From assembly GCA_035461305.1 (NCBI GenBank), contig DATHVN010000109.1, positions 62,001-126,000 on the forward strand: 64,000 bases of DNA, given 5' to 3'. The translations under genes were made by a program, and so were the position numbers. A model generated the notes under the pieces. The model did no database searches. It saw only the letters and a program-made list of their open reading frames with translations, and was not told where the DNA came from. Source of the DNA: Euzebyales bacterium (lineage in GTDB: Bacteria > Actinomycetota > Nitriliruptoria > Euzebyales > JAHELV01). Below are positions 10,069-40,482 of this stretch, in pieces (position 1 is the first letter of the stretch; each line of letters begins with the position of its first letter).

Positions 10069-10194
10069 CTTGCGGTGGGAACCACTGTACTCGATTCCGC
10101 CCGGTCATGACGGATTTCGAGGGCTGACGTGCGCACTGGACGCTCGGACAGGTCCGTCGTGGCGAGAGGTCAACAGATAACAGATGTGGTGTCG

Positions 10195-10223
10195 TTGACA
10201 TTCGCGGCGCGCCTCTGTGCGAA
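10195..10223 (+). promoter_or_regulatory. Candidate ilv promoter (-35 TTGACA)
   Basis: A perfect TTGACA occurs at 10195-10200. The hexamer 17 bases on is TGCGAA, a poor -10, inside a small CCTCTG/CAGAGG inverted repeat (10212-10230) that could be an operator. The 10069-10343 stretch holds no gene; the predicted 5' leader to the ilv leader peptide is about 110 nt. Confidence 0.35.
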
Positions 10224-10343
10224 GCAGAGGGTGGGCGGCGAAGCGTTGCGCCTTGTGGCAGCCGGGTTGCAATGCCGCGCGTCACGTCGCAGACTGCTGG
10301 TGGCGCGACCAGGCGCGCCATCCCGCTCGACCTGAGGACTGCC

Positions 10344-10418
10344 ATGAGCCAGCACTGGGATGACCGCCAGTCGCTCATCGTGCTCGTAGCCCTCGTCTCC
10401 ACGGTCGGAGGACGGTAG
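10344..10418 (+). CDS. ilvL: ilvBNC leader peptide (Leu/Ile/Val-rich)
   Basis: A 24-residue frame starting at ATG 10344, with GAGGA five bases upstream. Codons 11-18 read L-I-V-L-V-A-L-V, followed by S-T-V: eight of eleven consecutive codons specify the three branched-chain amino acids. The run spans 10374-10406, directly before a hairpin and the attenuator. Ribosome stalling here when charged Leu-, Ile- or Val-tRNA is scarce would favour antitermination, the classical mechanism for ilv operons. Coding sense is supported by codon content, ribosome-binding site and position rather than by homology. Confidence 0.85.
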
Positions 10419-10470
10419 TCGGCACAGCGACGATCAGCAGCCCTCCGCCACCCGGCGAAGGGCTTATTTG
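10394..10470 (+). terminator. Transcription attenuator of ilvBNC
   Basis: Mutually exclusive hairpins are visible. The 1:2 hairpin pairs CGTCTCC (10394-10400) with GGAGGACG (10407-10414), with one bulge. The antiterminator pairs CGGAGG (10406-10411) with CCTCCG (10442-10447). The terminator (10439-10464) is AGCCCT-C-CGCC / GGCG-A-AGGGCT, ten pairs with one mismatch, followed by TTATTTGGTT. The antiterminator uses the 5' arm of the terminator. The 1:2 hairpin overlaps the last leader codons, so ribosome position can select the structure. Confidence 0.8.
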
Positions 10471-10489
10471 GTTGAGAGGGTCAGTGCCC

Positions 10490-12277
10490 ATGCAGATGAC
10501 CGGAGCCCAGGCCGTGATCGCGACCCTCGAGACAGAGGGCGTCGAGGTGATGTTCGGTCACCCCGGCGGCGCGATCCTTCCCGCCTACGATCCGCTGCTC
10601 GACTCCCCGATGCGCCACGTGCTCGCCCGTCACGAGCAGGGCGCCGGCCACATGGCAGAGGGCTACGCGCAGGCCACTGGCCGTGTCGGCGTGGTCATGG
10701 CGACGTCCGGTCCGGGTGGCACGAACCTTGTGACCGCGCTCGCTGACGCGCACATGGACTCGGTGCCGCTCGTGGCGGTCACCGGCCAGGTTGCGCGGCC
10801 CGCCGTCGGTGGCGACGCGTTCCAGGAGGCCGACATCACCGGCATCACGATGCCGGTGACCAAGCACAATGAGCTCGTGCGCGACCCCGCCCGCATCGCC
10901 GGCGCGATCAAGGAGGCGTTCCACATCGCCTCCACCGGGCGGCCGGGACCGGTCCTGATCGACCTGCCCAAGGACGTGCTCGTCGAGACATTCGACTATC
11001 GCTACCCCGACCAGTTGAGCCTTCCCGGCTACCGTCCCACGGTCCGCGGGCACAGCAAGATGGTCCGCGAGGCAGCGCGGGAGATCCTCGACGCGCAGCG
11101 GCCTGTCATCTACGCGGGCGGAGGGATGATCAAGGCCCGTGGGGACGAGCAGCTGCGTGCGCTGGCCGAACTGCTCGAGCTCCCTGTGGTCACGACGCTG
11201 ATGGGCCGCGGCGTGTTCCCCGACGACCACCCCCAGCACCTTGGCATGCCGGGCATGCACGGCCACTGGACCGCCATCACCGCGCTCCAGCAGTCGGACC
11301 TGCTGATCGCGCTGGGCACGCGCTTCGACGACCGGGTCACCGGTGACCTCACGACCTTCGCGCCATACGCCCGGGTCATCCACGTTGACATCGACCCCGC
11401 GGAGATCGGCAAGAACCGCGAGCCCGACGTACCCATCGTCGGCGACGGCGCGGTCGTGACGCAGCAGATCAGCGACGCCGTGCGCCGCCTGCTGGCCGAT
11501 GGCGCCAGCGCCGCCGACCTTCAGCCGTGGTGGGATCGGCTTCGCACCTGGCGCGACGAGCACCCATTGCGGTGGGACCAGCAGGCGGACGGCCCGCTGA
11601 AGCCGCAGACCGTCATCCACGCGCTGGGTCGCCGGCTCGACGGGGAGGGCATTGTGGTCAGCGGTGTGGGCCAGCACCAGATGTGGGCGAGCCAGTTGGT
11701 CCGCTACCGCTCGCCGCGCACGTGGATCAACTCTGGTGGCCTCGGGACGATGGGCTTCTGCGTGCCGGCCGCCATCGGTGCCAAGATCGGGCGTCCCGAC
11801 GTGCCCGTCGTGGCGATCGACGGCGACGGCAGCTTCCAGATGACGCTGCAGGAGCTCGCGACCGCGACCACCGAGCGCGTCCCGGTCATCTTCTGCGTCA
11901 TCAACAATGGCGTGCTCGGCATGGTCCGTCAGTGGCAGGAGCTGTTCTACGAGCAGCGCTACTCACAGATCGAGCTGAGCACCGATGTGCCCGACCTGGT
12001 CAAGCTCGCCGACGCGATGGGCTGCGCCGGGTACCGGTGTGAGCGGCCGGAGGACGTCGAGCAGACCCTGGACAAGGCCCTCGCCGTCGGCGACGCGCCC
12101 GTCCTCGTCGACTTCCGCGTCGACCCCGAGGAGAAGGTGTTCCCGTTCGTGCCCGCCGGCGGCAGCAACGACGACGTCGTCGAGTCGCTCGACGAGTGGA
12201 CGGCCCGTCAGGACCCGCCCAAGGGCGGAGCGGGAGAGCCCGGAGGCGCCGGGCTGCCGATGGTCCCGCCGTCGTAG
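10490..12277 (+). CDS. ilvB: Acetolactate synthase large (catalytic) subunit
   Basis: ThDP- and FAD-dependent enzyme forming acetolactate or acetohydroxybutyrate, the first common step of valine, leucine and isoleucine synthesis. The protein is 595 residues. It has the catalytic Glu in [15 protein letters not shown], the FAD region [12 protein letters not shown] and the ThDP motif [16 protein letters not shown] chose the ATG at 10490, nine bases after GAGAGGG; an in-frame TTG at 10472 lies inside that site's upstream flank. It follows the attenuator and heads ilvB-ilvN-ilvC. Confidence 0.96.
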
Positions 12278-12311
12278 CCACCGGCACGTCCATGAGAGAG
12301 GTCCAGAACAG

Positions 12312-12836
12312 ATGAGCATGCACACCCTGAGCGTCCTCGTCGAGAACAAGCCGGGTGTCCTCGCCCGCGTCGCGGGGCTGTTCAGCCGCCGCGGGTTCAA
12401 CATCGAGTCGCTGTCGGTCGGCACGACCGAGTCGCCCCATGTGTCGCGCATGACGATCCTCGTCGATGCCGAGCACTCACCGCTGGAGCAGGTCACCAAG
12501 CAGCTGAACAAGCTGATCAACGTGCTCAAGATCGTCGAATTGACCCCGGCGGATGCCGTCGAGCGGGAGCTGCAGCTGATCAAGGTGGCCGCGACCGGCA
12601 CGACACGCAGCGAGATCATCGAAATCGCCGACGTGTTCCGCGCGAAGGTCGTCGACGTCGACGTCGAATCGGTCACCGTCGAGGTGACCGGATCGGCCGA
12701 CAAGCTCGAAGCGCTCGTGCGCCTGCTCGAACCGTACGGCATCCGCGAGCTCGTGCGATCGGGCATGATCGCGCTCGGCAGGGGCTCCCGCAGCATCACC
12801 GAGGGCCGGACGCTGCGCCTGCAACGCTCCGCCTGA
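12312..12836 (+). CDS. ilvN: Acetolactate synthase small (regulatory) subunit
   Basis: Regulatory ACT-domain subunit that activates IlvB and confers valine feedback inhibition in this family. The 174-residue protein has an N-terminal ACT domain starting [20 protein letters not shown] and the conserved [13 protein letters not shown], then the C-terminal domain with ERELQLIKV. The ATG at 12312 follows GAGAGAGG by about nine bases. It lies 34 bases after ilvB and 40 before ilvC, consistent with one operon. Confidence 0.96.
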
Positions 12837-12876
12837 CCCGCCCGCAGATCCATCACTTCACATAGAGGACGCCACG

Positions 12877-13878
12877 ATGGTCCAGATCCACTACGAGGAC
12901 GACGCCACGCTCGACCCGCTTGCCGACCGCACGGTGGCCGTGCTCGGCTTCGGCTCGCAGGGCCACGCGCACGCCCGCAACCTTGCGGAGTCGGGCGTCG
13001 CCGTCATCGTCGGTCTGCACGAGGGATCCTCGAGCAGAGGGCGCGCGCGAGATGCCGGCCTGGAGGTCACGTCGGTCGCCGACGCGGTCAAGCGTGCCGA
13101 CGTCGTCATGATGCTGATGCCCGACACGGTGCAGCCTGAGGCCTACCGCACCGAGGTCGAGCCCGGGCTGGTCGACGGCAACGCGCTGTTCTTCGCCCAC
13201 GGCTTCAACATCCACTACGGCCAGATCGTCCCGCCGGCGGGCGTCGACGTGTGCATGGTCGCCCCGAAGGGGCCAGGGCACCTGGTGCGCCGGACCTACA
13301 CCGAGGGCACGGGCGTGCCGGCGCTGATGGCGATCCACCAGGACGCGACCGGGACCGCCCGGAAGCTGACGCTGGCCTACGCCAGGGGTATCGGTGCCGC
13401 CCGCGCCGGCGTCCTCGAGACCACCTTCGCCGAGGAGACCGAGACCGACCTGTTCGGCGAGCAGGCCGTGCTGTGCGGTGGCGTGTCGAGCCTGGTGCAG
13501 AAGGCGTTCGAGACCCTGACAGAGGCCGGGTACCAACCGGAGGTCGCGTACTTCGAGTGCCTCCACGAGCTCAAGCTCATCGTTGACCTGTTCTACGAGG
13601 GCGGCCTGGCCCGCATGCGCTACTCGGTGTCGGACACCGCCGAGTACGGCGACTACTCCCGCGGCGACTACATCGTCGACGCCGGTGTCAAGGAACGCAT
13701 GCGCGACGCGCTGACCCAGATCCAGGACGGCCGGTTCGCCCGCGAGTGGATCCTTGAGAACGCGGCGGGGCGCCCCGCGTTCATGGCGCAGCGCCGCCGT
13801 CAGGCCGAGCACCCGATCGAGGAGGTCGGCCGGACGCTGCGGTCCATGATGAGCTGGCTGCCCCACCAGGACGACTGA
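12877..13878 (+). CDS. ilvC: Ketol-acid reductoisomerase (class I)
   Basis: Catalyses the Mg-dependent isomerisation and reduction of acetohydroxyacids. The 333-residue length is that of class I enzymes. The Rossmann motif [13 protein letters not shown] is near residue 24. The cofactor loop reads [12 protein letters not shown], keeping serines at the 2'-phosphate-binding positions, so NADPH use is likely. The C-terminal domain has the metal-binding [14 protein letters not shown] and [12 protein letters not shown]. It is the third gene of the ilv operon, with a GAGGA ribosome-binding site just upstream. Confidence 0.97.
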
Positions 13879-13921
13879 CCGCGCATCAGCGTTGGCGGGG
13901 TAGTCACTGTTTGACGACCGT

Positions 13922-13940
13922 CGGCCGGTCGAGCCGGCCG
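13922..13940 (+). terminator. Hairpin after ilvC
   Basis: CGGCCGG-TCGAG-CCGGCCG makes a perfect seven-pair stem with a five-base loop about 45 bases after the ilvC stop. There is no T-run. It lies just upstream of the metF -10 element. Confidence 0.5.
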
Positions 13941-13949
13941 GCGCGGCTG

Positions 13950-13963
13950 TAGGCTTCCGTGCC
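13950..13963 (+). promoter_or_regulatory. -10 element TAGGCT for leaderless metF
   Basis: TAGGCT at 13950-13955 ends eight bases before the metF ATG, and no ribosome-binding site is present. This fits a leaderless transcript. Confidence 0.45.
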
Positions 13964-14854
13964 ATGCCTGCATCCATCGTGTCGCTGCTGCGTGCCGACG
14001 CACCGACCCTGTCGTTCGAATTCTTCCCACCGAAGACCGACCAGGGCCGGCGAACGCTGTGGCGCACCATCGAGGGCCTCGCCGACCTGGCACCGGACTT
14101 CGTCTCGGTGACCTACGGCGCCGGCGGATCGACCCGCGACCGCACGCTGGACGTCATCGAGCGGGTCCGCGACCGGACGGCCCTGCTGCCGGTCATGCAC
14201 CTGACCTGCGTGGGGGCGACCCGCGAGGAGCTGACCGAACTCGCGCACGAGCTGACCGACCGCGGCGTCACCGACGTGCTCGCCCTGCGTGGCGACCCCC
14301 CGGACGGGCCGGCGGGGACGTGGGTCCCGACCGACGGCGGGTTTCGGTACGCCGCCGAACTCGTGGCGCTGCTCGACGGCCTCGGAGGCTTCGAGATCGG
14401 GGTCGCGGCCTTCCCGGAGGGCCATCCCGCATCGCCGTCGCGCGAGTCCGACATCGCCCACCTCGCCGCGAAGTGCGCGGTGGGCGCCGGCTACGCGATC
14501 ACGCAGTTCTTCTTCGATGTCAAGCAGTACGTGGCGCTGGTCGACGACCTGCGCGCGATCGGGTGCGAGACGCCGATCGTCCCCGGCGTGCTGCCCGTCA
14601 CCAACCCCGCGCAGACGCGACGCTTCGCGGCCGCGGCCGGCGCCACCATCCCCGCCGACCTCGACGCCGCGTTCCGGGCGGTCGAGGACGATCCGGCCAC
14701 AGTCCATGCGCTCGGTGTCGGCCGCGCGATCGAGTTGTCGCGCGACCTGCTCGCGGCGGGCGCGCCCGGGCTGCACATCTACACGCTCAACCGCGCCGCC
14801 GCGACCCGTGAGATCTGCGAGGCCCTGCGTGGCGTGGGAGCCCTGCCCGCCTGA
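13964..14854 (+). CDS. metF: 5,10-Methylenetetrahydrofolate reductase
   Basis: A FAD enzyme of one-carbon metabolism that reduces methylene-THF to 5-methyl-THF for methionine synthesis. The 296-residue protein has the N-terminal SFEFFPPKTDQG with the catalytic Glu, FVSVTYGAGGSTRD, the loop VLALRGDPP, and a flavin-binding ITQFFFDVKQY. Length and motifs match bacterial MetF. It stands alone with its own promoter between ilvC and serA. No S-adenosyl-homocysteine or cobalamin riboswitch is recognisable in the 85 bases upstream. Confidence 0.94.
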   Translation: MPASIVSLLRADAPTLSFEFFPPKTDQGRRTLWRTIEGLADLAPDFVSVTYGAGGSTRDRTLDVIERVRDRTALLPVMHLTCVGATREELTELAHELTDRGVTDVLALRGDPPDGPAGTWVPTDGGFRYAAELVALLDGLGGFEIGVAAFPEGHPASPSRESDIAHLAAKCAVGAGYAITQFFFDVKQYVALVDDLRAIGCETPIVPGVLPVTNPAQTRRFAAAAGATIPADLDAAFRAVEDDPATVHALGVGRAIELSRDLLAAGAPGLHIYTLNRAAATREICEALRGVGALPA

Positions 14855-14867
14855 GCGGGGCCGGGCT

Positions 14868-14897
14868 TTGTGACGTCATGCACGACCTGTCTACTCT
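14868..14897 (+). promoter_or_regulatory. Candidate serA promoter
   Basis: TTGTGA (14868-14873) and TACTCT (14892-14897) are separated by 18 bp. Transcription would start near 14904, about 28 nt before the serA ATG with its AGAGG ribosome-binding site. Confidence 0.45.
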
Positions 14898-14931
14898 GGC
14901 CCCGTCTCTCGTCCCTGCAGAGGTTGCAGCC

Positions 14932-16509
14932 ATGCGCGTGCTCATCGCAGACAAGCTGTCCGCCACCGGCGTGGCGGCGCTCGAGGCATCATACGACGTC
15001 GATGTCCGCACCGGGCTGTCCAAGCGGGAGCTGCTCGACATCGTCGGTCGTTACGACGCGGTCGTCGTCCGCTCGGCAACCACGATCGACGCCGACGTCA
15101 TCGCGGCGGCCGGCAGCCTGACCGTGATCGCGCGCGCCGGCATCGGCGTCGACAACATCGACCTCGAGGCTGCGACCGCGCGCGGGATCATCGTGTGCAA
15201 CGCCCCGCAGTCCAACACGATCAGCGCTGCCGAGCACACGATCGCGCTGCTGCTCGCACTCGCGCGCCGCGTCCCTGCCGCGGACCGCAGCCTCCGGGGC
15301 GGTGCGTGGGAACGCACCGCATTCCAGGGTGTCGAGCTGCACGGCCGCACCCTGGGCGTCATGGGCCTGGGCCGTGTCGGGACGCTCGTCGCCCGTCGGT
15401 GCGCGGCGTTCGGCATGAAGCTGGCCGCCTATGACCCGTACGTGTCGACCGAGCGGGCCGACCAGCTCGGCATCCAGCTCGTCGGGTCGCCCCTGCGGCT
15501 GTGCGAGATCGCCGACGTCGTGACGGTCCACCTCCCCCGCACCTCCGACACCGTAGGCATCGTCGGCGCCGAGGAGCTCGCCGCGCTCGGACCCGACGGT
15601 ATGCTCGTCAACACGGCGCGCGGTGGCATCGTCGACGAGGCGGCGCTGGCGACCGCGCTCGATGACGGCGTCCTCGGTGGGGCCGCGCTCGACGTGTTCT
15701 CGTCCGAGCCGGTGACGGAGTCCCCGCTGTTCTCCCTGCCCAACGTCGTGGTGACCCCGCACCTCGGCGCGTCGACTCAGCAGGCGCAGGACAAGGCCGG
15801 CCTGATGATCGCCGAGGCGGTGGACCTTGCGCTGCGCGGCGAGTTCGTGCCGAGCGCCGTCAACCTGCAGGTGTCTGCGGCGGTCACCGACCACGTGCGG
15901 GCGTTCCTGGGCCTGACCACGAAGCTCGGCCGGCTGTTCACCGCGCTGCACGAGGGTGTGACGAGTGCGATCACGATCGAGTACCGGGGCGGCATCGCCG
16001 ACGAGGACACCAGCGCGCTGAACCTCGCCGCGCTCACCGGGCTGTTGTCGGACGTCGTCGACGAGCCGGTGACCTACGTCAACGCGCCACTGACCGCCGA
16101 GGAACGCGGCCTCAAGTTGACGACGATGACCTCGTCGGCGCCGCGCGACTACGTGTCGCTCGTGCGGCTGACGGCCAACGGCGACAATGCGGTGGCCGGC
16201 ACGGTCGTCGGGCCGAACGACAAGGAGCGGCTGGTCGAGCTGTGGGGCTTCGAGATCGACATGGAGCCCAGCGAGCACATGCTGTTCTTCCGCTACGTGG
16301 ACCGGCCCGGCATCATCGGCCGGATCGGCAGCGTGCTGGGTGACGAGAACATCAACATCGCCACGATGCAGGTCGGGCGGCACGAGATGGGCGGCGACGC
16401 CCTGATCGCGATGACCACTGACTCGGCGGTTTCACCCGCCATAGCGCACCGCATAGCGGAGATCATCGGCTCCACCCACGCGCGGACCATCAGCCTGTCG
16501 CGGGCCTGA
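14932..16509 (+). CDS. serA: D-3-phosphoglycerate dehydrogenase
   Basis: Catalyses the first step of serine synthesis. It is the long type, 525 residues. The NAD motif GLGRVGTLVARR is near residue 146. The catalytic Arg is in NTARGGIVDE, the Glu in the following helix region, and the His in VVTPHLGASTQQAQ. Then come an intervening ASB-type domain (residues 320-450 or so) and a C-terminal ACT domain starting near HMLFFRYVDRPG, the serine-sensing part in related enzymes. I chose ATG 14932 for the AGAGG eight bases upstream; the frame extends to 14878 without a site. Confidence 0.95.
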   Translation: MRVLIADKLSATGVAALEASYDVDVRTGLSKRELLDIVGRYDAVVVRSATTIDADVIAAAGSLTVIARAGIGVDNIDLEAATARGIIVCNAPQSNTISAAEHTIALLLALARRVPAADRSLRGGAWERTAFQGVELHGRTLGVMGLGRVGTLVARRCAAFGMKLAAYDPYVSTERADQLGIQLVGSPLRLCEIADVVTVHLPRTSDTVGIVGAEELAALGPDGMLVNTARGGIVDEAALATALDDGVLGGAALDVFSSEPVTESPLFSLPNVVVTPHLGASTQQAQDKAGLMIAEAVDLALRGEFVPSAVNLQVSAAVTDHVRAFLGLTTKLGRLFTALHEGVTSAITIEYRGGIADEDTSALNLAALTGLLSDVVDEPVTYVNAPLTAEERGLKLTTMTSSAPRDYVSLVRLTANGDNAVAGTVVGPNDKERLVELWGFEIDMEPSEHMLFFRYVDRPGIIGRIGSVLGDENINIATMQVGRHEMGGDALIAMTTDSAVSPAIAHRIAEIIGSTHARTISLSRA

Positions 16510-16565
16510 GCGGACCGGGCGCAGGACGTGACACAATGCGCCGAGCCGACGACCGAGGATGCAAC

Positions 16566-17486: not shown

Positions 17487-17499
17487 CGTTCTCGGGCGG

Positions 17500-18369: not shown

Positions 18370-18579
18370 GTGATCGTCCTGATGTCCCGGTCGGTCAGGC
18401 GCGACGGTTTCGCTCGCCGCGCGGATCTCGTACCCTTGTGATAAGCGCTGCGGTCACTCGACGCGATCCGTCCGGTGGCCGCGTCGAGGCCGGTGCGAAG
18501 CCCACGGGCCCCGATCCGCGCTCCGACGACGGTGTGTGGCACGGCGATCCCGTGACCGCACGAACCGAAGGAGTCGCCA

Positions 18580-20657: not shown

Positions 20658-20669
20658 GAGGGCAGGGCA

Positions 20670-25431: not shown

Positions 25432-25524
25432 GTGCAGATCTCCCGGCCCGACGTACCTTCGCGCCCGACGGGCGCGATCTTCGGGCTGCTGCTCGCGGGC
25501 CTTCTCGGCCTCCTCATTCTTTGA
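25432..25524 (+). CDS. leuL: leuA leader peptide (Leu-rich)
   Basis: A 30-residue frame from GTG 25432 to TGA 25522. Its last fourteen residues are F-G-L-L-L-A-G-L-L-G-L-L-I-L: eight Leu and one Ile. The promoter just upstream would place the transcription start at the GTG, so it is probably read as a leaderless message. A strong hairpin starts three bases after the stop. Position, Leu content and downstream leuA fit leucine-responsive attenuation. A membrane-inserting micropeptide is an alternative reading of the hydrophobic end. Confidence 0.75.
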   Translation: MQISRPDVPSRPTGAIFGLLLAGLLGLLIL

Positions 25525-25526
25525 CG

Positions 25527-25559
25527 CCGCGGGGCGGAATCTCTCCCAACCCCCCGCGG
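25527..25559 (+). terminator. Attenuator hairpin before leuA
   Basis: CCGCGGGG (25527-25534) pairs perfectly with CCCCGCGG (25552-25559) around a 17-base loop. CGCGGG at 25494-25499, inside the Leu codon run, could instead pair with CCCGCG (25553-25558), giving a competing structure. There is no T-run, so termination strength is uncertain. Confidence 0.5.
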
Positions 25560-25613
25560 AGCGCCAGTCCGGGTCCACACCCAGCCCCCTGGTCAACGTG
25601 AGGAGACCGCACG

Positions 25614-27170
25614 ATGCCCCCCAACGCTGTACAGATCTTCGACACGACGCTGCGCGACGGCGAGCAGGCGCCCGGGATCTCGCTGGGCGTCAAGGAGAAG
25701 CTCGAGATCGCTGACCAGTTGGCCAGGCTGCACGTCGACATCATCGAGGCCGGCTTCCCCATCACCTCCCAGGGGGACTTCGACGCCGTCAAGGCGATCG
25801 CGGAGGACGTGGGCACCGTTCCCGACGCGCCCGTCATCGCGGCGCTCGCCCGCTGTGCGCGTGGCGACATCGACCGTGCGGCCGCCGCGCTGAAAGGTGC
25901 GGCGCGCTCCCGGATCCACGTGTTCCTGTCGACGTCGGAGATCCACCGGCGCGCGATGCTGCGGGCATCGGAGGAGGAGATCCTGGCGTCGACCGCCGCC
26001 TCGGTCCGCCACGCCCGCAGCTACACCGACAACGTCGAGTTCAGCCCGCAGGACGCCACCCGCACCGACCACGACTTCCTGGTGAAGGTCGTCGACGTGG
26101 CGGTCGAGAACGGGGCGACGACGGTCAACATCCCGGACACGGTCGGCTACGCGCTGCCCCACGACTTCGGCGCGCTGATCGCCGAGATCGTCGGCCGGGT
26201 CGGCGACGACGTCATGGTCAGCGTGCACTGCCACAACGACCTGGGTCTGGCGGTCGCGAACTCGCTGGAGGCGGTCCGTAACGGTGCCCGCCAGATCGAG
26301 GTGGCGGTCAACGGCATCGGTGAGCGCGCGGGCAACTGCTCCATGGAGGAGGTCGTCATGGCGCTGGCGACGAGGTCGGATCTGCTGGAGCGCTCGACGC
26401 AGATCGCGACGCGCGAGATCGCACGCACCTCACGTATGGTCACGGCTCTCACCGGCTATCCGGTCCAGTTCAACAAGGCCGTCGTTGGTCGCAACGCGTT
26501 CGCCCACGAATCCGGCATCCACCAGCACGGCGTGCTCCAGGACCGCCTGACCTACGAGATCATGCGTGCCGAGGACATCGGGTTGACGGGCGCCCAGATC
26601 GTCCTGGGCAAGCACTCGGGCCGCCACGCCTTCGCCACTCAGCTGGCCGAGCTGGGCTACGAGCTCGCGGACGACGAACTGGCGCGAGCGTTCTCACGCT
26701 TTAAGGAGCTGGCCGACCGCAAGGTCGAGCTGACCGACATCGACCTCGAGGCGATCGTCGCCGACGAGGTCTCGGCCAGCGCCGACGACGTGTTCGAACT
26801 GCAGTCCCTGCAGGTCTCCGGTGGCACCGCGACGGCACCAACCGCCACGGTCCGCGTCCGCAGGACGGCCGACGACGTCACGATCGACGAGTCGGCGATG
26901 GGAGACGGCATGGTCGACGCTGCCTGCGGCGCGATCCGCCGCGCAGTGGGGATCGAGGCGAGGTTGGTCACCTTCAACGTCGCCGCTGTCACCGGGGGCA
27001 TCGACGCCCTCGGCGACGTGACCGTGCAGGTCGAGGTCGACGGCAGGCGCATCAGCGGCCGCGGCGTGTCAACCGACATCGTCGAGGCCAGTGCACGCGC
27101 CTTCCTGTCGGCCATCAACAAGTCGGTACGCCTGCGCCACCGCGCGCGGGCGATGACCGACACCCCCTGA
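25614..27170 (+). CDS. leuA: 2-Isopropylmalate synthase
   Basis: Condenses 2-ketoisovalerate with acetyl-CoA, the first committed leucine step. The 518-residue protein is of the bacterial LeuA type. IFDTTLRDGEQAPGISL opens the TIM barrel, VSVHCHNDLGLAVANSLEA supplies metal ligands and FAHESGIHQHGVL is the C-terminal barrel signature. The LeuA regulatory dimer domain (residues 390-510) is present, so leucine feedback inhibition is likely. GAGGAG precedes the ATG. It follows the leader peptide and attenuator. Confidence 0.95.
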   Translation: MPPNAVQIFDTTLRDGEQAPGISLGVKEKLEIADQLARLHVDIIEAGFPITSQGDFDAVKAIAEDVGTVPDAPVIAALARCARGDIDRAAAALKGAARSRIHVFLSTSEIHRRAMLRASEEEILASTAASVRHARSYTDNVEFSPQDATRTDHDFLVKVVDVAVENGATTVNIPDTVGYALPHDFGALIAEIVGRVGDDVMVSVHCHNDLGLAVANSLEAVRNGARQIEVAVNGIGERAGNCSMEEVVMALATRSDLLERSTQIATREIARTSRMVTALTGYPVQFNKAVVGRNAFAHESGIHQHGVLQDRLTYEIMRAEDIGLTGAQIVLGKHSGRHAFATQLAELGYELADDELARAFSRFKELADRKVELTDIDLEAIVADEVSASADDVFELQSLQVSGGTATAPTATVRVRRTADDVTIDESAMGDGMVDAACGAIRRAVGIEARLVTFNVAAVTGGIDALGDVTVQVEVDGRRISGRGVSTDIVEASARAFLSAINKSVRLRHRARAMTDTP

Positions 27171-27299: not shown

Positions 27300-27446
27300 A
27301 TGACCACCATCGACCCCGACGTCGCGGCCCAGCCCACGGCGACGGACACCGGCGACAGCACCGCGACCACACCCCTGGAGCCCGTCGTGCGCATCGACGG
27401 CGAGCTCGCGGGCAGACTGCTGGCCAGCGCACGCTGGCAGCAGTGA
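27300..27446 (+). CDS. 48-residue unknown protein coupled to leuC
   Basis: ATG 27300 follows AGGAGCAGGAG closely, one of the strongest ribosome-binding sites in the window. The frame ends with TGA at 27444, overlapping the GTG start of leuC as GTGA. The product is Thr/Asp-rich for 25 residues, then [20 protein letters not shown] and a Trp-Gln-Gln end. I recognise no family. It is not a Leu-rich leader. Overlap and signals suggest real translation, either to couple leuC or as a small LeuCD-associated protein. Confidence 0.6.
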
Positions 27447-28858
27447 CAGAGGCAGGGATGCCCGAGACTCCCAGGACCCTGATCGACAAGATCTTCGACA
27501 GCCACGTCGTCGTCCAGGACGACGGCCCAGCACTGCTCTATGTCGATCTCCACCTCGTCCACGAGGTCACAAGCCCACAGGCGTTCGAGGGGCTGCGGCT
27601 CTCGGGTCGGCGGGTGCGCCGCCCGGAGCTGACGCTGGCCACGATGGACCACAACGTGCCGACGACCGACCGATCGCTGCCGGTGGCCGACGAGCTGTCC
27701 GCCGCCCAGATCGAGGCGCTGCGCAGCAACTGCGAGGAGTTCGGCATCCGCCTGTTCGACCTGCACTCGCGGCAGCAGGGCATCGTCCACATGATCGGCC
27801 CCGAGCTCGGGCTCACCCAGCCGGGCATGACGATCGTCTGCGGCGACAGTCACACGGCGACGCACGGCGCGTTCGGTGCGCTGGCGTTCGGCATCGGCAC
27901 GAGCGAGGTCGAGCACGTGCTGGCCACCCAGACGCTGCCCCAGGGGCGGCCGAGGCAGATGGTAGTCGAGGTCGACGGCGACCTGCCGTTCGGCGTGACC
28001 GCCAAGGACGTCATCCTGTCCATCATCGCCGCGATCGGCGTCGATGGTGGCAACGGCCACGTCATCGAGTACCGCGGCAGCACGGTCGCGGGCCTGTCCA
28101 TGGAAGGCCGCATGACGATCTGCAACATGTCGATCGAGGGCGGTGCCCGGGCCGGCCTGATCGCGCCCGACGAGACCACCTTCGCCTACCTCAAGAACCG
28201 CCCGCACGCGCCGCAGGGCGACCAGTGGGACGAGGCCCTGGCGTACTGGCGATCGCTGCCGACCGAGGACGGCGCGATGTTCGACCGCGTGGAACGCCTG
28301 TCCGCTGCCGACGTCGAGCCAACGGTGACGTGGGGCACCACCCCCGCGATGAGCGTCCCGGTAGGCGGGCACGTCCCGCACCCGGAGGACACACCGGACC
28401 CGGCGCACGCCCAGCGGGCGCTCGAGTACATGGGTCTCCAGGGCGGCGACGCCATCACCGACATCACGCTCGACCGCGTGTTCCTCGGCTCGTGCACGAA
28501 CGCCAGGATCGAGGATCTGCGCGCGGCCGCGACCGTCGTCGCCGGCAGACGCGTCGCAGACGGCATCCACGCGATGGTGGTGCCCGGCTCGTACCCCGTG
28601 AAGCTGCAGGCCGAGTCCGAGGGCCTTGCCGACGTCTTCGTCGACGCCGGCTTCGAGTGGCGCGAGCCCGGCTGTTCGATGTGCCTGGGCATGAACCCCG
28701 ACATCCTGGCACCCGGTGAACGCTGCGCGTCGACGTCGAACCGCAACTTCGAGGGCCGGCAGGGTAGAGGCGGACGCACCCACCTGGTGTCGCCCGTGAT
28801 GGCCGCGGCGGCCGCGGTCCACGGGCACTTCGTCGACGTCCGCGACCTGACCGACTGA
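27443..28858 (+). CDS. leuC: 3-Isopropylmalate dehydratase large subunit
   Basis: Iron-sulphur aconitase-family subunit that isomerises 2- to 3-isopropylmalate, 471 residues. [21 protein letters not shown] is typical of the family. The three cluster cysteines are in [13 protein letters not shown] and [16 protein letters not shown]. The GTG at 27443 overlaps the preceding small gene's stop. leuD starts 19 bases downstream. Confidence 0.97.
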
Positions 28859-28877
28859 CGACGAAAGCGACGAGCAC

Positions 28878-29471
28878 GTGGAGCCACTCACCGCAGTCTC
28901 CGGCCGTATGGCCCCGCTGGACCGTGCGCACGTCGACACGGACCAGATCATGCCGAAGCAGCACCTCAAGCGCATCGAGCGGACAGGCTTCGGCGACCTC
29001 GTGTTCAGCGACTGGCGCGCCGACCCGGACTTCGTGCTGAACCGGCAGCGGCACGCCGGTGCGACGATTCTGGTCGCCGGCCCGAACTTCGGTTCGGGGT
29101 CGTCCCGTGAGCATGCAGCATGGGGTCTGCAGCAGTACGGCTTCGATGCGATCATCGCGCCGTCGTTCGCGGACATCTTCCGCAGCAACTGCGCGAAGAT
29201 CGGCTTGCTGACCGTCGTCCTGTCCGCCGAACGCTGCGGGGAACTGATCGCCCTGGCGACCGACCAGCCGCATGTCGACATCCACATCGATGTGTACGAG
29301 CAGAGCGTCCGGACACCGTCCTGGATGGAGCACTTCGAGATGGACCGGCACACGAAGCGTGTGCTGACCAAGGGCCTGGACTCCATCGACCTCATCCTCA
29401 CCCAGGAGGGCGACATCGCCGGCTTCGAGGCATCCCGACCGTCGTTCCTGCCGGTGGCCGCGAGCGCCTGA
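28878..29471 (+). CDS. leuD: 3-Isopropylmalate dehydratase small subunit
   Basis: The swivelling-domain partner of LeuC, 197 residues. It has TDQIMPKQHLKRIERTGFG, the phosphate-binding GPNFGSGSSREHAAWGLQQYG and APSFADIFRSNCAKIG. The start is GTG 28878 with only a weak purine-rich site; an operon with leuC is clear. leuB, needed for the next step, is at 39.1 kb instead. Confidence 0.96.
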   Translation: MEPLTAVSGRMAPLDRAHVDTDQIMPKQHLKRIERTGFGDLVFSDWRADPDFVLNRQRHAGATILVAGPNFGSGSSREHAAWGLQQYGFDAIIAPSFADIFRSNCAKIGLLTVVLSAERCGELIALATDQPHVDIHIDVYEQSVRTPSWMEHFEMDRHTKRVLTKGLDSIDLILTQEGDIAGFEASRPSFLPVAASA

Positions 29472-29496
29472 AGATCGCGGGACGCCGGAGCCTGGG

Positions 29497-31132: not shown

Positions 31133-31454
31133 CGACCGCACCGGATCCGGCCTCGGCAGTGGTCGCCCCGGAACGACGCCGCCCTCGCCGCGCAGCTGCA
31201 CGGTGGGGTCGTGCAGCAGCTCACGGCGCTGTCGCTGGCGGTGGTCAGCGCCCTGCTGCATCACGCCGACGGTGACGCCGCTGCGGTCGAGGCCGCGCTA
31301 CGTTCGGTGCGAGCGGTCGCGGACGCGACCGTGCGCGACTGCCGGAGCTGATCGACGGGTTGCACGGAGATGCTTGATTTCAGGACCCGCCGCCGCCACG
31401 CTGGTCGTCGCGCCCGTTCCCGATGACCCCTGGGGAGTACCGGTTGGCAGCTGA
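31129..31454 (+). pseudogene. Truncated, frameshifted NarL-type histidine kinase remnant
   Basis: Starting at a GTG that overlaps the previous stop, the reading must change frame twice. The central piece reads AAQLHGGVVQQLTALSLAVV and continues to a stop at about 31350; it matches a HisKA_3 phosphoacceptor helix (His in QLHGGVV). The next piece, ELIDGLHGDA, is in another frame, and a third frame gives ISGPAAATLVVAPVPDD. No ATPase domain remains. I read it as the decayed relic of a kinase gene. Confidence 0.5.
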
Positions 31455-31962: not shown

Positions 31963-31997
31963 CGTGGAGGGTTCTGCGCTGACGAAAGGCCCGCGCG

Positions 31998-34904: not shown

Positions 34905-35662
34905 ACCGGGCGCGCTGGCTCGAGGCGCTCGGCATTCGCGCCGCTGCCGTGACCGACGAGCGGACCCTGCGTGAGGCGGAACGGCTGCGGACCGCCGGGC
35001 GGGTCATGTCGGTCCGCACCTCCGCGGGCCTGATCGAGGCGCGGGTGCAGGGGTCGCACGCTCGACCGCACCTCGTCGAGCTCGCGGTCGACACGTGGAC
35101 CGACGAGCAGTGGCACGCCGTCGGTGACCTGCTCGCGCGACAGGCCCGCCACTACGCGCGCCTGCTCGCCGGCCAGCTGCCAGACCAGTTCGACGTCGCG
35201 CTGGCCGAGCTCGGCCTGTCCCTGGTGCCCCCGGCCGGACAGTGGCGTCTGCGGTGCACCTGCGACCAGGCGTCACCGTGCGTGCACCAGGTCGCCGTGT
35301 GGCTCAGCGTCCGCGACCACCTCGACCGCGAACCGTATCTGATCACCCGGCTACGTGGTCGCAGCCGCGAGCAGCTGCTCGCCGAGATCCGCGATCAGCG
35401 GGAGGCCGGCGAGCGTTCGGGTGTCGACGCGACCACCCTCGATACACGCCGCTGGTCCCAGGCCGCCATGGATCCCGCCGAGGTACCGCTACCCGCCGTG
35501 CGCCGCCCGGCGACCACGGCTGGACCCCTGCGGATGCTCGGCGACCCACCGGGCTGGGCGGGAGTGGCTGACGCGCTCACGATGTTCGGGCCCGCGATCG
35601 AGGCGGCGGGTGAGCGCGCGCGCCTCCTGCTCAGCGAGGACGGCCACGTCGAAGACGGCTGA
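34901..35662 (+). CDS. SWIM zinc-finger protein paired with SNF2 ATPase
   Basis: A 253-residue protein with a SWIM zinc finger, CTCDQASPCVHQVAVWL (Cys-x-Cys...Cys-x-His). It starts at a GTG overlapping the SNF2 stop codon, so the two should be made together. In many bacteria a SWIM-finger protein is encoded beside this type of SNF2 ATPase; the finger probably guides DNA or protein binding. The precise role, DNA repair or transcription, is not established from sequence. Confidence 0.85.
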   Translation: MNRARWLEALGIRAAAVTDERTLREAERLRTAGRVMSVRTSAGLIEARVQGSHARPHLVELAVDTWTDEQWHAVGDLLARQARHYARLLAGQLPDQFDVALAELGLSLVPPAGQWRLRCTCDQASPCVHQVAVWLSVRDHLDREPYLITRLRGRSREQLLAEIRDQREAGERSGVDATTLDTRRWSQAAMDPAEVPLPAVRRPATTAGPLRMLGDPPGWAGVADALTMFGPAIEAAGERARLLLSEDGHVEDG

Positions 35663-35758
35663 GCCGGTCCAGGCGCGGGAGCCCTCAGGGGACAGGTCGG
35701 GGGTCGCCGAGGACGTGATCGTGCCGGGGCGCCGGCGCGCCTGCCGAGGCCGTAGGCG

Positions 35759-36154
35759 CTAGGCGACGTCCTGCAGCCCGGGAGGCAGGGTGCCGGTCGC
35801 GCGCCGCCATCCCGCGGCCGCACCACGGCTGGCTACCATGCGCGCGACGCCGATCACCAGTCCGGTCGCGGCGGTCCATGCGATGGCCTCGCCCCATGAG
35901 GTGGCGGGATCGGCCGGGTTGTTCGGTGGTTCCGACTTCGCGACGCTGCGCCACACGGCAATCAGCAGGTTGCGCACCGCCATGCTCGCCAGCACCGCGG
36001 CGCCCGTCGCCGCGATCTTCCAGACGGTCTTCTCCATCGCCTGTCCCATCTCTGCGCGCATCTCGTCGTTGAAGACGTCCAGGTCGCGTCCCAAGCGCTC
36101 GCGTGCGGCGCGCACGGCCTCGTGCTGGGGAAGCAGCCCCTTGGTCTCGTTCAC
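35759..36154 (-). CDS. DUF4235 membrane protein
   Basis: A 131-residue small membrane protein. WKIAATGAAVLASMAVRNLL is a likely membrane segment and PPNNPADPATSWGEAIAW the family signature, followed by a second hydrophobic stretch. I chose GTG 36154 because it overlaps the upstream gene's stop as GTGA and GAGG precedes it; an ATG at 36181 would overlap by 31 bases. Function unknown; the family is actinobacterial. Confidence 0.78.
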   Translation of the reverse strand: MNETKGLLPQHEAVRAARERLGRDLDVFNDEMRAEMGQAMEKTVWKIAATGAAVLASMAVRNLLIAVWRSVAKSEPPNNPADPATSWGEAIAWTAATGLVIGVARMVASRGAAAGWRRATGTLPPGLQDVA

Positions 36155-36594
36155 CGTCCTCGCAGGTGTGTCTTGACCCACGCCATGTCCTCCTGCACGT
36201 TCGTCTTCGCCTGCTCAACGGACACGGGCGTGCCCAGCTTGTTCCTGCCGATCAGCATCAGCACGGCGGCGATGAGGATCAGGACCCCAGCCACGATGAG
36301 CGCCGCAGCCCATCCTGGCATGACCAGTGCGAGTGCGAATCCCGCCGCGATCAGCAGGCCCTGCACGGCCAGCCACAGCAGCACGGCCGCGCCAATCATC
36401 AAGCCCATGCCGAGGCCGTTGGCCATGACGCCCTGCGTCAGCTCGGCCTTGGCCAGGTCGATCTCGGCGCGGACCAGCTCCGACGTGTCCTGCGCGACCG
36501 CCTTGAGCGCTGTGGCGGCGCCGATGGTCGGCCTGGCTCCGAACGTGTAGCGCGATCCCGGTGGCGGCCGTCCGTCCGTGTCAATCTCCGTCAT
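36151..36594 (-). CDS. Actinobacterial Holin-X / phage-holin superfamily III-like membrane protein
   Basis: A 147-residue protein with the amphipathic SELVRAEIDLAKAELTQG followed by two long hydrophobic segments (about residues 58-80 and 86-108) and a polar tail. This pattern fits the Holin-X/DUF1469 group of chromosomal membrane proteins, which despite the name are not in phages here. It forms a two-gene unit with DUF4235 and is divergent from the sigma factor gene. Confidence 0.72.
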   Translation of the reverse strand: MTEIDTDGRPPPGSRYTFGARPTIGAATALKAVAQDTSELVRAEIDLAKAELTQGVMANGLGMGLMIGAAVLLWLAVQGLLIAAGFALALVMPGWAAALIVAGVLILIAAVLMLIGRNKLGTPVSVEQAKTNVQEDMAWVKTHLRGR

Positions 36595-36997
36595 CTGCCC
36601 ACCCGCTGTCGTGTGACGTTGTCTCGTCGCGTCCGATGGTACCCGGTGTGGTGCATTCCCAGCGTGCACCTCCACACCCGTTGGTACGCGAGATCGTGCT
36701 CATCCGCGGAGCCCATCACACGCCGGGAGGGTACGAAGTGGTACGACCGGGTATCCGTTCCGAGCAGCCACGGCAAGGAGTCGGGTTGCACGATCAGACG
36801 GCACCACGCACCATGTGCAGCGCGCCTGGTGCCACAGGTGCGCATCGTAGCGGTCCGCGCACCGTATCCTGGCAGGCGTCCGCATGTCCCAACCCGGGTC
36901 GTTCCGGTCACCAGGACGGACCCGACCACCGGTTTGCGCGGTGCGGGCGGGCGCGAGCACGGACGTTGGACGGGTCGAACGAAGGGTGACGGCGACG
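36595..36997 (+). promoter_or_regulatory. Sigma-factor upstream region with hairpin and four GGTAC boxes
   Basis: No gene is seen in these 403 bases. A hairpin with GGTGTGG-TGCA / TGCA-CCT-CCACACC arms spans 36645-36678. GGTAC occurs four times (from 36638, 36683, 36730 and 36740); the last two, both GGTACGA, lie exactly 10 bp apart, one helical turn. TATCCT at 36864 is a possible -10. Overlapping open frames here are Arg/Pro-rich noise. Confidence 0.45.
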
Positions 36998-37930
36998 GTG
37001 CCACAGATCGTAGAGGAGATGCCGCTCCACGATCACGTGCAGCTGTACCTGCGCGAGATGGCGCGGACCGCCCTGTTGACCGCGGAGGAGGAGGTCGACC
37101 TCGCGAAGCGCTACGAGGCCGGTCTCGAGGCCGACCGTCTGATCAAGAACGGCGGCGAGCAGCAGCAGCCCCGACGACGGCAGCTCCAACAGGTGCTGCG
37201 GGACGGCCAGCGCGCCAAGGAACGCCTGGTGCAGGCCAACCTCCGACTTGTCGTGTCCGTCGCCAAGCGCTACCAGGGCCAGGGACTGCCACTGCTCGAC
37301 CTCATCCAGGAGGGCAACCTCGGGCTGCTCCGCGCCGTGGAGAAGTTCGACTATCGCCGCGGCTACAAGTTCTCGACGTACGCGACCTGGTGGATCCGCC
37401 AGGCGGTGGGACGCGGCGTCGCCGACAAGGGCCGCACGATCCGTCTGCCCGTGCACATGATGGAGCGGGTCCGCCGTGCGCTGTCGATGCAGCGCGACCT
37501 GGCCGAGAGCCTGGGACGTGAGCCCGCGATCGAGGAGCTCGCCGAGGAGCTCGGCGAAGACGTCGAGACCGTCGAGGAGCTGCTCACCTACGCCCGGACG
37601 CCGACGTCACTGGAGACGCCGGTCGGTGAGGACGGCGACGCCGAGCTCGGTGACTTCATCGAGGACCGCAACGCCGACGACCCGATGGAGGTCGCGGCGA
37701 AGGGCATGGCCCGCCGGGAACTGCTCGACGTCGTCGCCGGGCTGCCCGAGCGGGAACGCATCATCCTCGAGCTGAGGTTCGGCCTGCTTGACGGCGAGGC
37801 GCGCACGCTCGACGACGTCGGCCGGTACTTCGGCCTCACGCGGGAGCGCATCCGTCAACTTGAGGCGCGCGCGCTGTCCAAGCTGCGCCATCCCTCGCGT
37901 GGCCGCGCGCTCAGCGACACCGCCGCCTGA
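36998..37930 (+). CDS. RpoD/SigA-like sigma-70 factor without region 1.1
   Basis: A group 1/2 sigma factor, 310 residues. Region 1.2 is HVQLYLREMARTALLTAEEE. Regions 2.1-2.4 include RLVVSVAKRYQGQGLPLLDL and YKFSTYATWWIRQAVGRG, with the core -10 recognition helix. Region 3 and region 4.2 (TLDDVGRYFGLTRERIRQLE) are intact. The acidic region 1.1 is absent, suggesting either a short primary factor or a group 2 paralog. I chose GTG 36998, twelve bases after GAAGG; ATG 37019 has its GAGGAG directly abutting. Confidence 0.88.
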   Translation: MPQIVEEMPLHDHVQLYLREMARTALLTAEEEVDLAKRYEAGLEADRLIKNGGEQQQPRRRQLQQVLRDGQRAKERLVQANLRLVVSVAKRYQGQGLPLLDLIQEGNLGLLRAVEKFDYRRGYKFSTYATWWIRQAVGRGVADKGRTIRLPVHMMERVRRALSMQRDLAESLGREPAIEELAEELGEDVETVEELLTYARTPTSLETPVGEDGDAELGDFIEDRNADDPMEVAAKGMARRELLDVVAGLPERERIILELRFGLLDGEARTLDDVGRYFGLTRERIRQLEARALSKLRHPSRGRALSDTAA

Positions 37931-37952
37931 CGCCCACGACAGCCGACGTCGC

Positions 37953-38360
37953 ATGTCCGCAGGCGCCGACAGGATCGAGGCCGCGGGCGGCGTGCTGTGG
38001 CGCAGGGATACGGACGGTCTGCGGTACGCGATCATCCACCGCCCCAAGTACGATGACTGGTCGCTGCCCAAGGGCAAGCTGGATCCCGGCGAGACCCACG
38101 AGCAGGCCGCCGTCCGCGAGGTCGAGGAGGAGACCGGCTGGCAGGCCGAGGTCGGTCCGGAGCTCGGCGTGATCACCTACGAGCACGGCGGCCGTCCCAA
38201 GCGGGTGGAGTACTGGAGCATGCGTGCCATCGACGGTGACTTCGTCCCGAACAAGGAGGTCGACGACCTGCGGTGGCTGCCTCAGGACCAGGCGCGGGCG
38301 CTGTTGAGCTACGACCGCGACCGTGACGTCTTCGACCGCTTCGTGGCGGCGCTCGACTGA
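37953..38360 (+). CDS. NUDIX hydrolase
   Basis: A 135-residue NUDIX protein that cleaves nucleoside-diphosphate-linked substrates. The box GKLDPGETHEQAAVREVEEE followed by TGW fits the consensus. The EAAGGVLWRRDTDGLRYAIIH start and the WSLPKGK motif resemble diadenosine-polyphosphate / RNA-cap-type hydrolases, including some actinobacterial MutT1 N-terminal domains; the histidine phosphatase domain of MutT1 is not present. It begins 22 bases after the sigma factor. Confidence 0.88.
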   Translation: MSAGADRIEAAGGVLWRRDTDGLRYAIIHRPKYDDWSLPKGKLDPGETHEQAAVREVEEETGWQAEVGPELGVITYEHGGRPKRVEYWSMRAIDGDFVPNKEVDDLRWLPQDQARALLSYDRDRDVFDRFVAALD

Positions 38361-38388
38361 GGCGCGTGGCTACCCGTGGTGCGTGGGT

Positions 38389-38895
38389 CTACAGGTCCTG
38401 CTCCAGCAGGTCCATGAGCAGACAGTCCTGCCAGGTGCCGTCCGCGGCTCGCTCGTACTGACGCATCACGCCCACGGACTGGAAGCCGACGCGGGAGAAC
38501 GTCCGGATGGCGGGATCGTTGTCGACAGCCGGGTACACCGCGACCCGGTGGTGGCTGCGGTCATAGATGAGGTGGCGCACAAGGGTGCGCACGGCGTCGG
38601 TGGCCAGGCCCTTGCCCTGCTCCTCGGGGTCAAGGAAGAGATCCATGCTGGCGTGCCGGTAGTCCCGGGCGGGCTCCTCGGCGTACTGCACCGAACCGAT
38701 CACCCGTGTGTCCAGTGCGATCACGTACACGGTCAGATCGGTGCTGTCGACCAGCACGTCGCGCACCCGGGCATGGTCGTACCGCGGCCACCACCGCGTG
38801 ACCTCGGGCAACGCGAGGATGTGCGTCAGCGGCTCGGCGTCGGCGGCCGTGGCCGGGCGCAGCGTCACGTGCGCTCCGTGCAACCTGGCCGCCAT
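38389..38895 (-). CDS. GNAT-family N-acetyltransferase (AAC(6')-like)
   Basis: A 168-residue acetyltransferase. [14 protein letters not shown] opens the fold; [20 protein letters not shown] is the acetyl-CoA-binding motif A, and [20 protein letters not shown] motif B. The sequence pattern resembles aminoglycoside 6'-N-acetyltransferase-like proteins, but substrate cannot be inferred. Start ATG 38895 has GAGG upstream. It is divergent from leuB. Confidence 0.82.
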
Positions 38896-39094
38896 GCGGG
38901 GACCTCGACTTCCGCTCCGGACACCGCCTTCGACACGGCGCCTGGATCGTATCGTGCCAGATCCCGGCAGCGCGTGCTGGCGTTTCGTACGGTCCGACGG
39001 ATCGGCACCCCACCGGGCTGCGTCGCCACCCGCAGATGTGGCAGGCTCTAGCTGCAGCGACGACACAGCGGCGAAACGCGCGCAAGGGAGCACG

Positions 39095-40198
39095 ATGACC
39101 ACCGCCAAGCCGGCCGCCGTGGCCGAACCCTCCTCTGACCTCCAGATCGCGGTCATCGCCGGAGATGGCGTCGGTCCGGAGGTGATCAGCGAGGCGCTGA
39201 AAGCGCTGCGCGTCGCGGCGACACGCTTCGGCTTCACCGTCGACACGACCACCTACGACCTCGGTGGACGTCGGTACCTGCGGACCGGGGAGGTTCTGCC
39301 CGACCCGGTGCTTGCCGAACTGGCCGAGCACGACGCGATCCTCCTGGGTGCGGTCGGCACGCCGGACGTTCCACCTGGTGTGCTCGAGCGGGGCCTGCTG
39401 CTGCGCCTGCGCTTCGCGTTCGACCAGTACGTCAACCTTCGACCGGTGCGGCTGCTCCCCGGGGTCACGTCCCCCGTCGCCGGTCTCACGCCCGAGCAGT
39501 GCGACCTCGTGGTCGTGCGCGAGAACACCGAGGGTGCATACGCCGGCGCCGGCGGTGCGCTGTACCTCGGCACACCCGCCGAGGTCGCGACGCAGGACTC
39601 GATCAACACCCGACGCGGCGTCGAACGGGTCGTGCGGTTCGCCTTCGAGGCCGCGCAGCATCGTGGTGGGCACGTGACCCTGTGCCACAAGACCAACGTG
39701 CTCACCTTCGCCGGTGATCTGTGGAAGCGGACCGTGGATGACGTCGCGGCCGACCATCCCGACGTCACCGTCGACTACACCCACGTCGACGCCGCGTGCC
39801 TGTACCTGGTGACCGACCCCGGTCGCTTCGACGTGATCGTCACCGACAACCTGTTCGGTGACATCATCACCGACCTCGGAGCGGCCGTGCAGGGCGGTAT
39901 GGGCCTGGCGGCCAGTGGCAATCTCAACCCGACCGGTATCGCCCCGAGCATGTTCGAGCCGGTGCACGGGTCGGCTCCGGACATCGCCGGGACAGGCCAG
40001 GCCAACCCGGTCGCCGCGGTGCTGTCGGTGGCGATGTGCCTCGAGCATGTCGGTCACGACAAGGCGGCGACCTCGATCGACAACGCCGTCGCCGCGATCC
40101 TGCCACAACTCGCCGCGATGGGTGGCGACGCGATGGGCTACTCGACCAAGGAGATCGGTGACCGGATCGCCCAGGCCGTCGCGTCAGGCGCGGCCTGA
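39095..40198 (+). CDS. leuB: 3-Isopropylmalate dehydrogenase
   Basis: NAD-dependent oxidative decarboxylase of leucine synthesis, 367 residues. It has [17 protein letters not shown], the substrate-binding [32 protein letters not shown] and the metal-binding [18 protein letters not shown]. The adenosine loop is [25 protein letters not shown] lies a few bases before ATG 39095. It is separate from leuACD and placed before the cimA leader. CimA-pathway methylmalate may also be its substrate, as in other organisms. Confidence 0.95.
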
Positions 40199-40252
40199 GC
40201 GTGTGGGACGCGGGCGACCGCCTGCACCGGTGGAGCCTGCGAGCCGGCCAGG

Positions 40253-40281
40253 TTGAGTTTCGCCAGGGCCTTGGGCACAAT
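40253..40281 (+). promoter_or_regulatory. cimA leader promoter
   Basis: TTGAGT (40253-40258), a 17-bp spacer and CACAAT (40276-40281). Transcription would start about seven bases later, at the ATG of the leader frame, giving a leaderless leader-peptide message like that of leuA. Confidence 0.55.
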
Positions 40282-40288
40282 CGCAGCC

Positions 40289-40393
40289 ATGCGTGCGATC
40301 ACGTCTCCCACTGCCGCGCTGCACGAAGGCGCGGACCACCGCCGGCCCACCGCCGGCGCCAGCGACGTGATCATCATCCGCAGGTCCCGTTAG
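40289..40393 (+). CDS. cimA leader peptide with Ile-Ile-Ile codons
   Basis: A 34-residue frame from ATG 40289 to TAG 40391. Near its end are V-I-I-I encoded by GTG ATC ATC ATC (40367-40378), followed by R-R-S-R and the stop. Isoleucine is the end product of the citramalate route started by the downstream gene, so three consecutive Ile codons just before a hairpin fit attenuation by charged tRNA-Ile. No second protein-coding role is evident. Support is from codon content, promoter spacing and position. Confidence 0.65.
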   Translation: MRAITSPTAALHEGADHRRPTAGASDVIIIRRSR

Positions 40394-40401
40394 GGCCGGC
40401 A

Positions 40402-40433
40402 GCTGGTGCCGGGCCGACGGGGTCCGCACCAGC
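40402..40433 (+). terminator. Attenuator-type hairpin before cimA
   Basis: GCTGGTGC (40402-40409) and GCACCAGC (40426-40433) are perfect complements around a 16-base loop, beginning nine bases after the leader stop. There is no T-run; it may block transcription or the initiation region of cimA. Confidence 0.5.
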
Positions 40434-40482
40434 GCGCTCCGCAGCCCGGCATCGGCCAGCACACCACCCGAAAGGCCATGCC

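Follow-up and report, generated by a model that had tools for sequence, protein, structure and literature searches.

The stretch analysed here, called the window throughout, comprises 64,000 nucleotides (nt) from a Euzebyales bacterium (contig DATHVN010000109.1, positions 62,001 to 126,000 of the forward strand) and carries the branched-chain amino acid biosynthesis genes ilvBNC, leuACD, leuB and cimA, identified with NCBIfam and Pfam. Upstream of ilvB, leuA and cimA lie short open reading frames (ORFs) rich in codons for the end products of the respective pathways, each with a hairpin on its 3' side; these features had been pointed out in an initial annotation and can all be read directly in the window. 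The same annotation took the operons to be unlinked, which does not fit the map, as all three leader ORFs are on the + strand within 30 kb, though in separate transcription units, with leuB adjoining the cimA leader on its upstream side. We consider it probable, judging from comparative sequence analysis, that the three ORFs encode leader peptides for ribosome-mediated attenuation, each acting through an RNA element of its own, which at cimA would be a translational switch. The leaders and the genes behind them are as follows.

10344-10418, + strand: ilvB leader ORF, containing LIVLVALV (read directly; relatives have leaders rich in Ile, Leu and Val)
10490-12277, + strand: ilvB, acetolactate synthase large subunit (NCBIfam)
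12312-12836, + strand: ilvN, acetolactate synthase small subunit (NCBIfam)
12877-13878, + strand: ilvC, ketol-acid reductoisomerase (NCBIfam)
25432-25524, + strand: leuA leader ORF VQISRPDVPSRPTGAIFGLLLAGLLGLLIL up to the stop codon, GTG start, 8 Leu among the last 14 residues (read directly; relatives)
25614-27170, + strand: leuA, 2-isopropylmalate synthase (NCBIfam)
27443-29471, + strand: leuC and leuD (NCBIfam/Pfam)
40289-40393, + strand: cimA leader ORF MRAITSPTAALHEGADHRRPTAGASDVIIIRRSR up to the stop codon, with the Ile-Ile-Ile codons at 40370-40378 (read directly; class-wide)
40483-42117, + strand: cimA, citramalate synthase, GTG start (NCBIfam TIGR00977)

Conservation was assessed in the window's class, represented by 66 genomes in the collection used, from which 300-nt upstream regions were gathered and scanned for short ORFs, with first-order shuffles and the upstream regions of the other genes as controls. 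The closest named relatives by CimA are metagenome-assembled genomes (MAGs) labelled Nitriliruptorales (72%) and Nitriliruptoria (67%). An ORF with at least three Ile in five codons precedes 74% of 53 cimA genes (shuffles 0.2%; leuA or ilvB 0%), one with at least five Leu in nine codons precedes 89% of 38 leuA genes (shuffles 0.3%; cimA 0%), and one with at least six Ile, Leu or Val in eight codons precedes 52% of 50 ilvB genes (shuffles 0.7%). Comparison of sequences thus shows that all three leaders are conserved across the class far above chance, each carrying codons for the end product of the enzyme it precedes, which bears out the match between codons and pathways proposed initially; the loss of leaders or codons in relatives, named there as a possible refutation and looked for in part, did not appear, both being kept. 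Rare synonymous codons are moreover enriched in all three leaders relative to the enzyme genes, with the Ile codons ATT and ATA at 27% versus 6% (Fisher p 6e-9), Leu codons other than CTC and CTG at 25% versus 4.5% (Fisher p 7e-18), and GTA and GTT at 29% versus 2.8% (Fisher p 8e-23). That each leader senses the charged tRNA of its own pathway product is well supported by these sequence patterns: scarcity of the matching charged tRNA would stall the ribosome at the end-product codons of the leader and shift the RNA fold towards expression. No convincing leader was found before ilvD, ilvE-type aminotransferase genes, leuB, serA or gltX of the same genome, a statement that covers these tested genes only.

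The leader before cimA appears to be the new one, those of ilvB and leuA having already been described in Actinobacteria. Its surroundings in the window contain the following elements.

40253-40281, + strand: candidate promoter TTGAGT-17 nt-CACAAT, whose end lies 7 nt upstream of the leader ATG (by eye)
40367-40443, + strand: hit of R1, the covariance model for the cimA element (best in the whole genome, E = 0.008)
40383-40391, + strand: arm a of stem P1, formed by the last leader codons, pairing with 40416-40424 (alignment, pair counts, folding)
40402-40433, + strand: stem P3 hairpin GCTGGTGC...GCACCAGC, 40402-40409 pairing with 40426-40433, its loop holding the P1 arm a' (alignment, pair counts, folding)
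40445-40456, + strand: segment c, alternative 12-bp partner of 40402-40413, segment b (sequence, folding)

The aligned class sequences follow the consensus CGCTCCCGTAG-CCGG...CCGGGCTG-CGGGAGCG-GCCCGG, in which P1 is formed by the last leader codons and the stop codon paired to CGGGAGCG, while P3 consists of CCGGGC paired to GCCCGG across CGGGAGCG. Because the P3 loop contains arm a' of P1, an H-type pseudoknot of the two stems is possible. Of the alignment cells, 97.5% are paired in P1 and 78.7% in P3; covariation exceeds that of all 500 shuffles, pair counts lie above those of shuffles, and slid controls are exceeded on paired cells and on covariation score, although there is little variation at most P1 pairs and family f2 has P3 in a shifted position. 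Some 43 of the 66 class genomes each give about one strong match to model R1, which was built without the window's genus, and these matches lie immediately 5' of cimA. Within the window's genus the leader peptides end in VIIIRRSR, VIIIRRS, MIIIRGSR or VAIIREPR, in most of the class in IIIxPLP or close variants, and the last Ile codon has an invariant AT with T or C in third position. The frame of the leader relative to cimA is random (13, 18 and 16 leaders over the three frames), and the leader is therefore not a missed N-terminal extension of CimA. The position of the candidate promoter suggests that the leader transcript is leaderless; stricter promoter scans found no promoter and did not list this candidate.

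As to how the cimA element acts, an intrinsic terminator follows the leader at none of 48 class loci, the window included, and the leader codons show no pairing with the Shine-Dalgarno (SD) sequence of cimA (z = -2.5 in the test used for leuA, see below). The helix b:c competes with P3 above shuffles (z = 6.2), and a hairpin seen by eye (40448-40457/40474-40482), which adjoins the SD sequence and start of cimA, has its 5' arm partly within segment c. In folding calculations across the class, opening the start region costs 8.7 kcal/mol with the final Ile codon occupied by a ribosome, compared with 10.2 kcal/mol after shuffling of the segment immediately before the start region (p about 5e-5) and 11.5 kcal/mol when P1 and P3 are formed (p about 8e-8); the window's own values in this test are 6.5 and 13.1. 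On these models, control of translation through access to the start is the most likely reading for cimA in this class. The place of a terminator would be taken by P1, a P3 compatible with a pseudoknot and the alternative helix b:c: an unhindered ribosome would allow the P1/P3 form, in which the cimA start stays occluded, whereas a ribosome stalled on Ile codons would mask P1, so that b could pair with c and the start be freed.

In two genomes of family f3, G022 and G023, cimA lacks a leader and the element, with leader ends ALIIRSVT and ARIIRSAT, precedes another gene (L312:1553-2263, + strand, and L313:3046-3798, - strand). The encoded protein of 197-211 aa has no Pfam match; its predicted N-terminal beta-alpha-beta-beta-alpha-beta order recalls an ACT domain, in a low-confidence model (pLDDT 48).

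Outside the class, Ile-rich ORFs also occur upstream of cimA, namely in Thermobifida fusca, Actinomadura, Nonomuraea, Sphaerisporangium, Acrocarpospora, Aeromicrobium, Nocardioides, Pedococcus, Knoellia and Terrabacter and in genomes from several further families, so that the groups concerned include Streptosporangiales, Nocardioides, Micrococcales, probably Streptomyces, and others. Family f23, a single genus that is probably Streptomyces, has a near-identical leader ending in LSFAMIIGSRRAGPQ together with a terminator in all eight genomes sampled. Since many sampled families have no such leader, its distribution is widespread but patchy. Where the leader is present outside the class, an intrinsic terminator accompanies it at 35 of 35 loci (19/19 and 16/16), compared with 4 of 49 loci without a leader and 5-7% in shuffles; the leaders were listed before terminators were checked, and the sixteen named loci were chosen by hand. 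Further afield, short ORFs ending in ATTIIIT and KKIIIII lie upstream of cimA in an Armatimonadetes MAG (L042) and in Candidatus Actinomarina (L081), respectively; to judge by these sequences, the range of cimA Ile leaders may extend past the lineages tested. It is possible, and we propose it only tentatively, that actinobacterial cimA is under a so far undescribed Ile leader attenuator whose terminator was replaced in one class by a pseudoknot-type translational switch, the sensor having moved between transcriptional and translational output in evolution.

The two other leaders are of known and ordinary kinds. The upstream region of leuA is an LEU element, with the following parts.

25510-25516, + strand: CTCCTCA, part of the Leu codon run and able to pair with the leuA SD sequence (class z = 6.8 versus shuffled SD regions)
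25527-25559, + strand: conserved GC-rich hairpin CCGCGGGG...CCCCCGCGG, LEU-type element, no U tract (read directly; class comparison)
25599-25605, + strand: leuA SD sequence TGAGGAG, partner of 25510-25516 (sequence, pairing test, folding)

The helix between Leu codons and SD sequence, CTCCTCAT:GTGAGGAG in the window, forms the base stem of the LEU element; such helices reach 10 bp and vary together across the class, in which none of 35 leuA leaders is followed by an intrinsic terminator. With regard to the conserved pseudoknot that belongs to the LEU element, the class upstream regions show, by eye only, a conserved hairpin with complementary loop and downstream motifs. In the proposed switch, the Leu codons would base-pair with the ribosome-binding site of leuA except where a stalled ribosome sits on them.

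At ilvB, the leader is likewise of the known type, and its switch would be an intrinsic transcription terminator.

10439-10464, + strand: intrinsic-terminator-like hairpin AGCCCTCCGCCACCCGGCGAAGGGCT then TATTTGGTT, with a TATTTGG tail (11-bp stem, 5 T in 8)

The same hairpin in the sister genome L147 has 7 T in 8, and 18 of 39 class ilvB upstream regions contain an intrinsic terminator (shuffles 0), while that of the window is absent from the output of a stricter scan. The tail of the ilvB leader does not pair with the ilvB SD sequence in the class test, and a competitor pairing GGAGG:CCTCC is visible in the window by eye only. In most of the class ilvB upstream regions (L168-L230), a near-perfect hairpin CGCGTGCTC...GAGCACGCG begins at the leader stop codon and a second, AACCTCCCGG...CCGGGAGGTT, lies downstream of it, a two-hairpin layout more regular than that of the window. 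Of the single tRNA-sensing logic put forward in the initial annotation, the sensing part holds up, in that detection of its own charged tRNA by each leader fits both the codon conservation and the enrichment of rare codons; a single mechanism does not, as a terminator at ilvB, codon:SD pairing at leuA and neither of these at cimA are distinct outputs.

Several observations weigh against ribosome-mediated attenuation at all three loci. Minimum-energy folds of the window's ilvB region contain no antiterminator, the terminator stays folded at every ribosome position tried, and its tail has merely 5 T in 8. Mutations of the S. coelicolor ilvB leader codons were reported to be without effect, and those of the leuA leader there to be inconsistent with classical attenuation (both as cited in PMC1262725). 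Six class members have cimA with no detectable leader (L094, L097, L098, L101, L107, L109). A first folding test of the cimA element was unspecific, in that stalling at the stop codon and at Ile produced equal shifts, and was superseded by the version with the shuffled-segment control; segment c accounts for only slightly more of the start region's pairing than its length predicts (0.21 versus 0.17). It could be argued that codon runs and hairpins arose by chance in a GC-rich genome or are left over from coding sequence, since hairpins come cheap at 70% G+C and the cimA frame is open upstream through the leader (ORF 40201-42117). A chance origin of the codon runs is ruled out by the class-wide comparison, and this explanation as a whole is highly improbable in view of the conservation of the right codons in the class and beyond, the rare-codon enrichment, the covariation and the random relative frame. 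The elements might instead be binding sites of a protein or ligand with the leader peptides incidental, as proposed for the LEU element (ML1624 orthologues); Seliverstov et al. (PMC1262725) argued for a protein site at leuA on the ground that mutating the codons had changed little in S. coelicolor. We regard this as improbable too, given that codon identity follows the enzyme, that rare synonymous codons are chosen and that the Leu codons co-vary with the leuA SD sequence, none of which a protein site needs.

A more serious competitor, though still an unlikely one, concerns the output at cimA alone and would have the leader act on transcription in the class: after completion of the leader, Rho or a hairpin without a U tract would stop the polymerase in a C-rich stretch before cimA, which an Ile-stalled ribosome would prevent. 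Leaders outside the class do carry intrinsic terminators at cimA, and transcriptional control may therefore be ancestral; the stretch after the cimA element is also C-rich (C 0.42-0.46, G 0.30-0.32) relative to leuA (0.35/0.33) and ilvB (0.31/0.39). However, C-richness is weak evidence for Rho, a U-tract terminator is missing from 48 of 48 class cimA upstream regions, and the b:c helix and the opening energies of the start region favour control of initiation.

Among neighbouring features, the gene at 36884-37930, between the leu and cimA loci, encodes a sigma factor of the sigma-70 family that has regions 1.2 to 4, and two tRNA genes follow gltX at 43834-43905 and 43948-44020. An Rfam scan of the window at gathering threshold returned these two tRNAs only and no described leader family; at E <= 0.1, no family was found at sixteen loci, including the window's leuA and ilvB upstream regions and cimA leaders within and outside the class, and the ilvB leader had no significant match.

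Citramalate synthase, an enzyme used in metabolic engineering, is the entry to a threonine-independent isoleucine route. A leader sensing charged tRNA-Ile would be a direct control point of cimA in Actinobacteria, probably including Streptomyces, that annotation has missed. Because the sensor is coupled to a terminator in most lineages but lacks one in the window's class, it would allow transcriptional and translational attenuation to be compared in a natural setting. The cimA leader appears to be undescribed so far, being neither mentioned in the open-access literature searched nor matched in Rfam, an absence that is no proof of novelty.

Attenuation by an ilvB leader in Actinobacteria was described computationally in 2005 (PMC1262725), and experiments in C. 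glutamicum (2025; PMC11857589) and in M. tuberculosis (2026; PMC13236596) support it. With these attenuators of ilvBNC or ilvB1NC the window shares, upstream of ilvB, a leader ORF rich in branched-chain amino acids and an intrinsic terminator behind it, and it differs in lineage only, the leader sequence itself being different. The leuA region likewise matches the LEU element (Seliverstov et al., 2005; PMC1262725) in its Leu-run leader, conserved hairpin, lack of a terminator and complementarity of Leu codons to the SD sequence, and differs in lineage only, with the co-varying pairing described above in the window's class. The leader peptides of S. lividans TK24, mostly on leaderless transcripts, are also amino acid leaders in an actinobacterial host; they comprise leuL1, leuL2, ilvL, trpL1, trpL2, alaL, metL and thrL but none for cimA (PMC8079986), although family f23 has such a leader with its terminator. 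The proposed cimA switch resembles translational attenuation of the ermC type, in which a ribosome stalled on the leader alters hairpin pairing and exposes the downstream ribosome-binding site; there the signal is an antibiotic, whereas at cimA it would be codon starvation.

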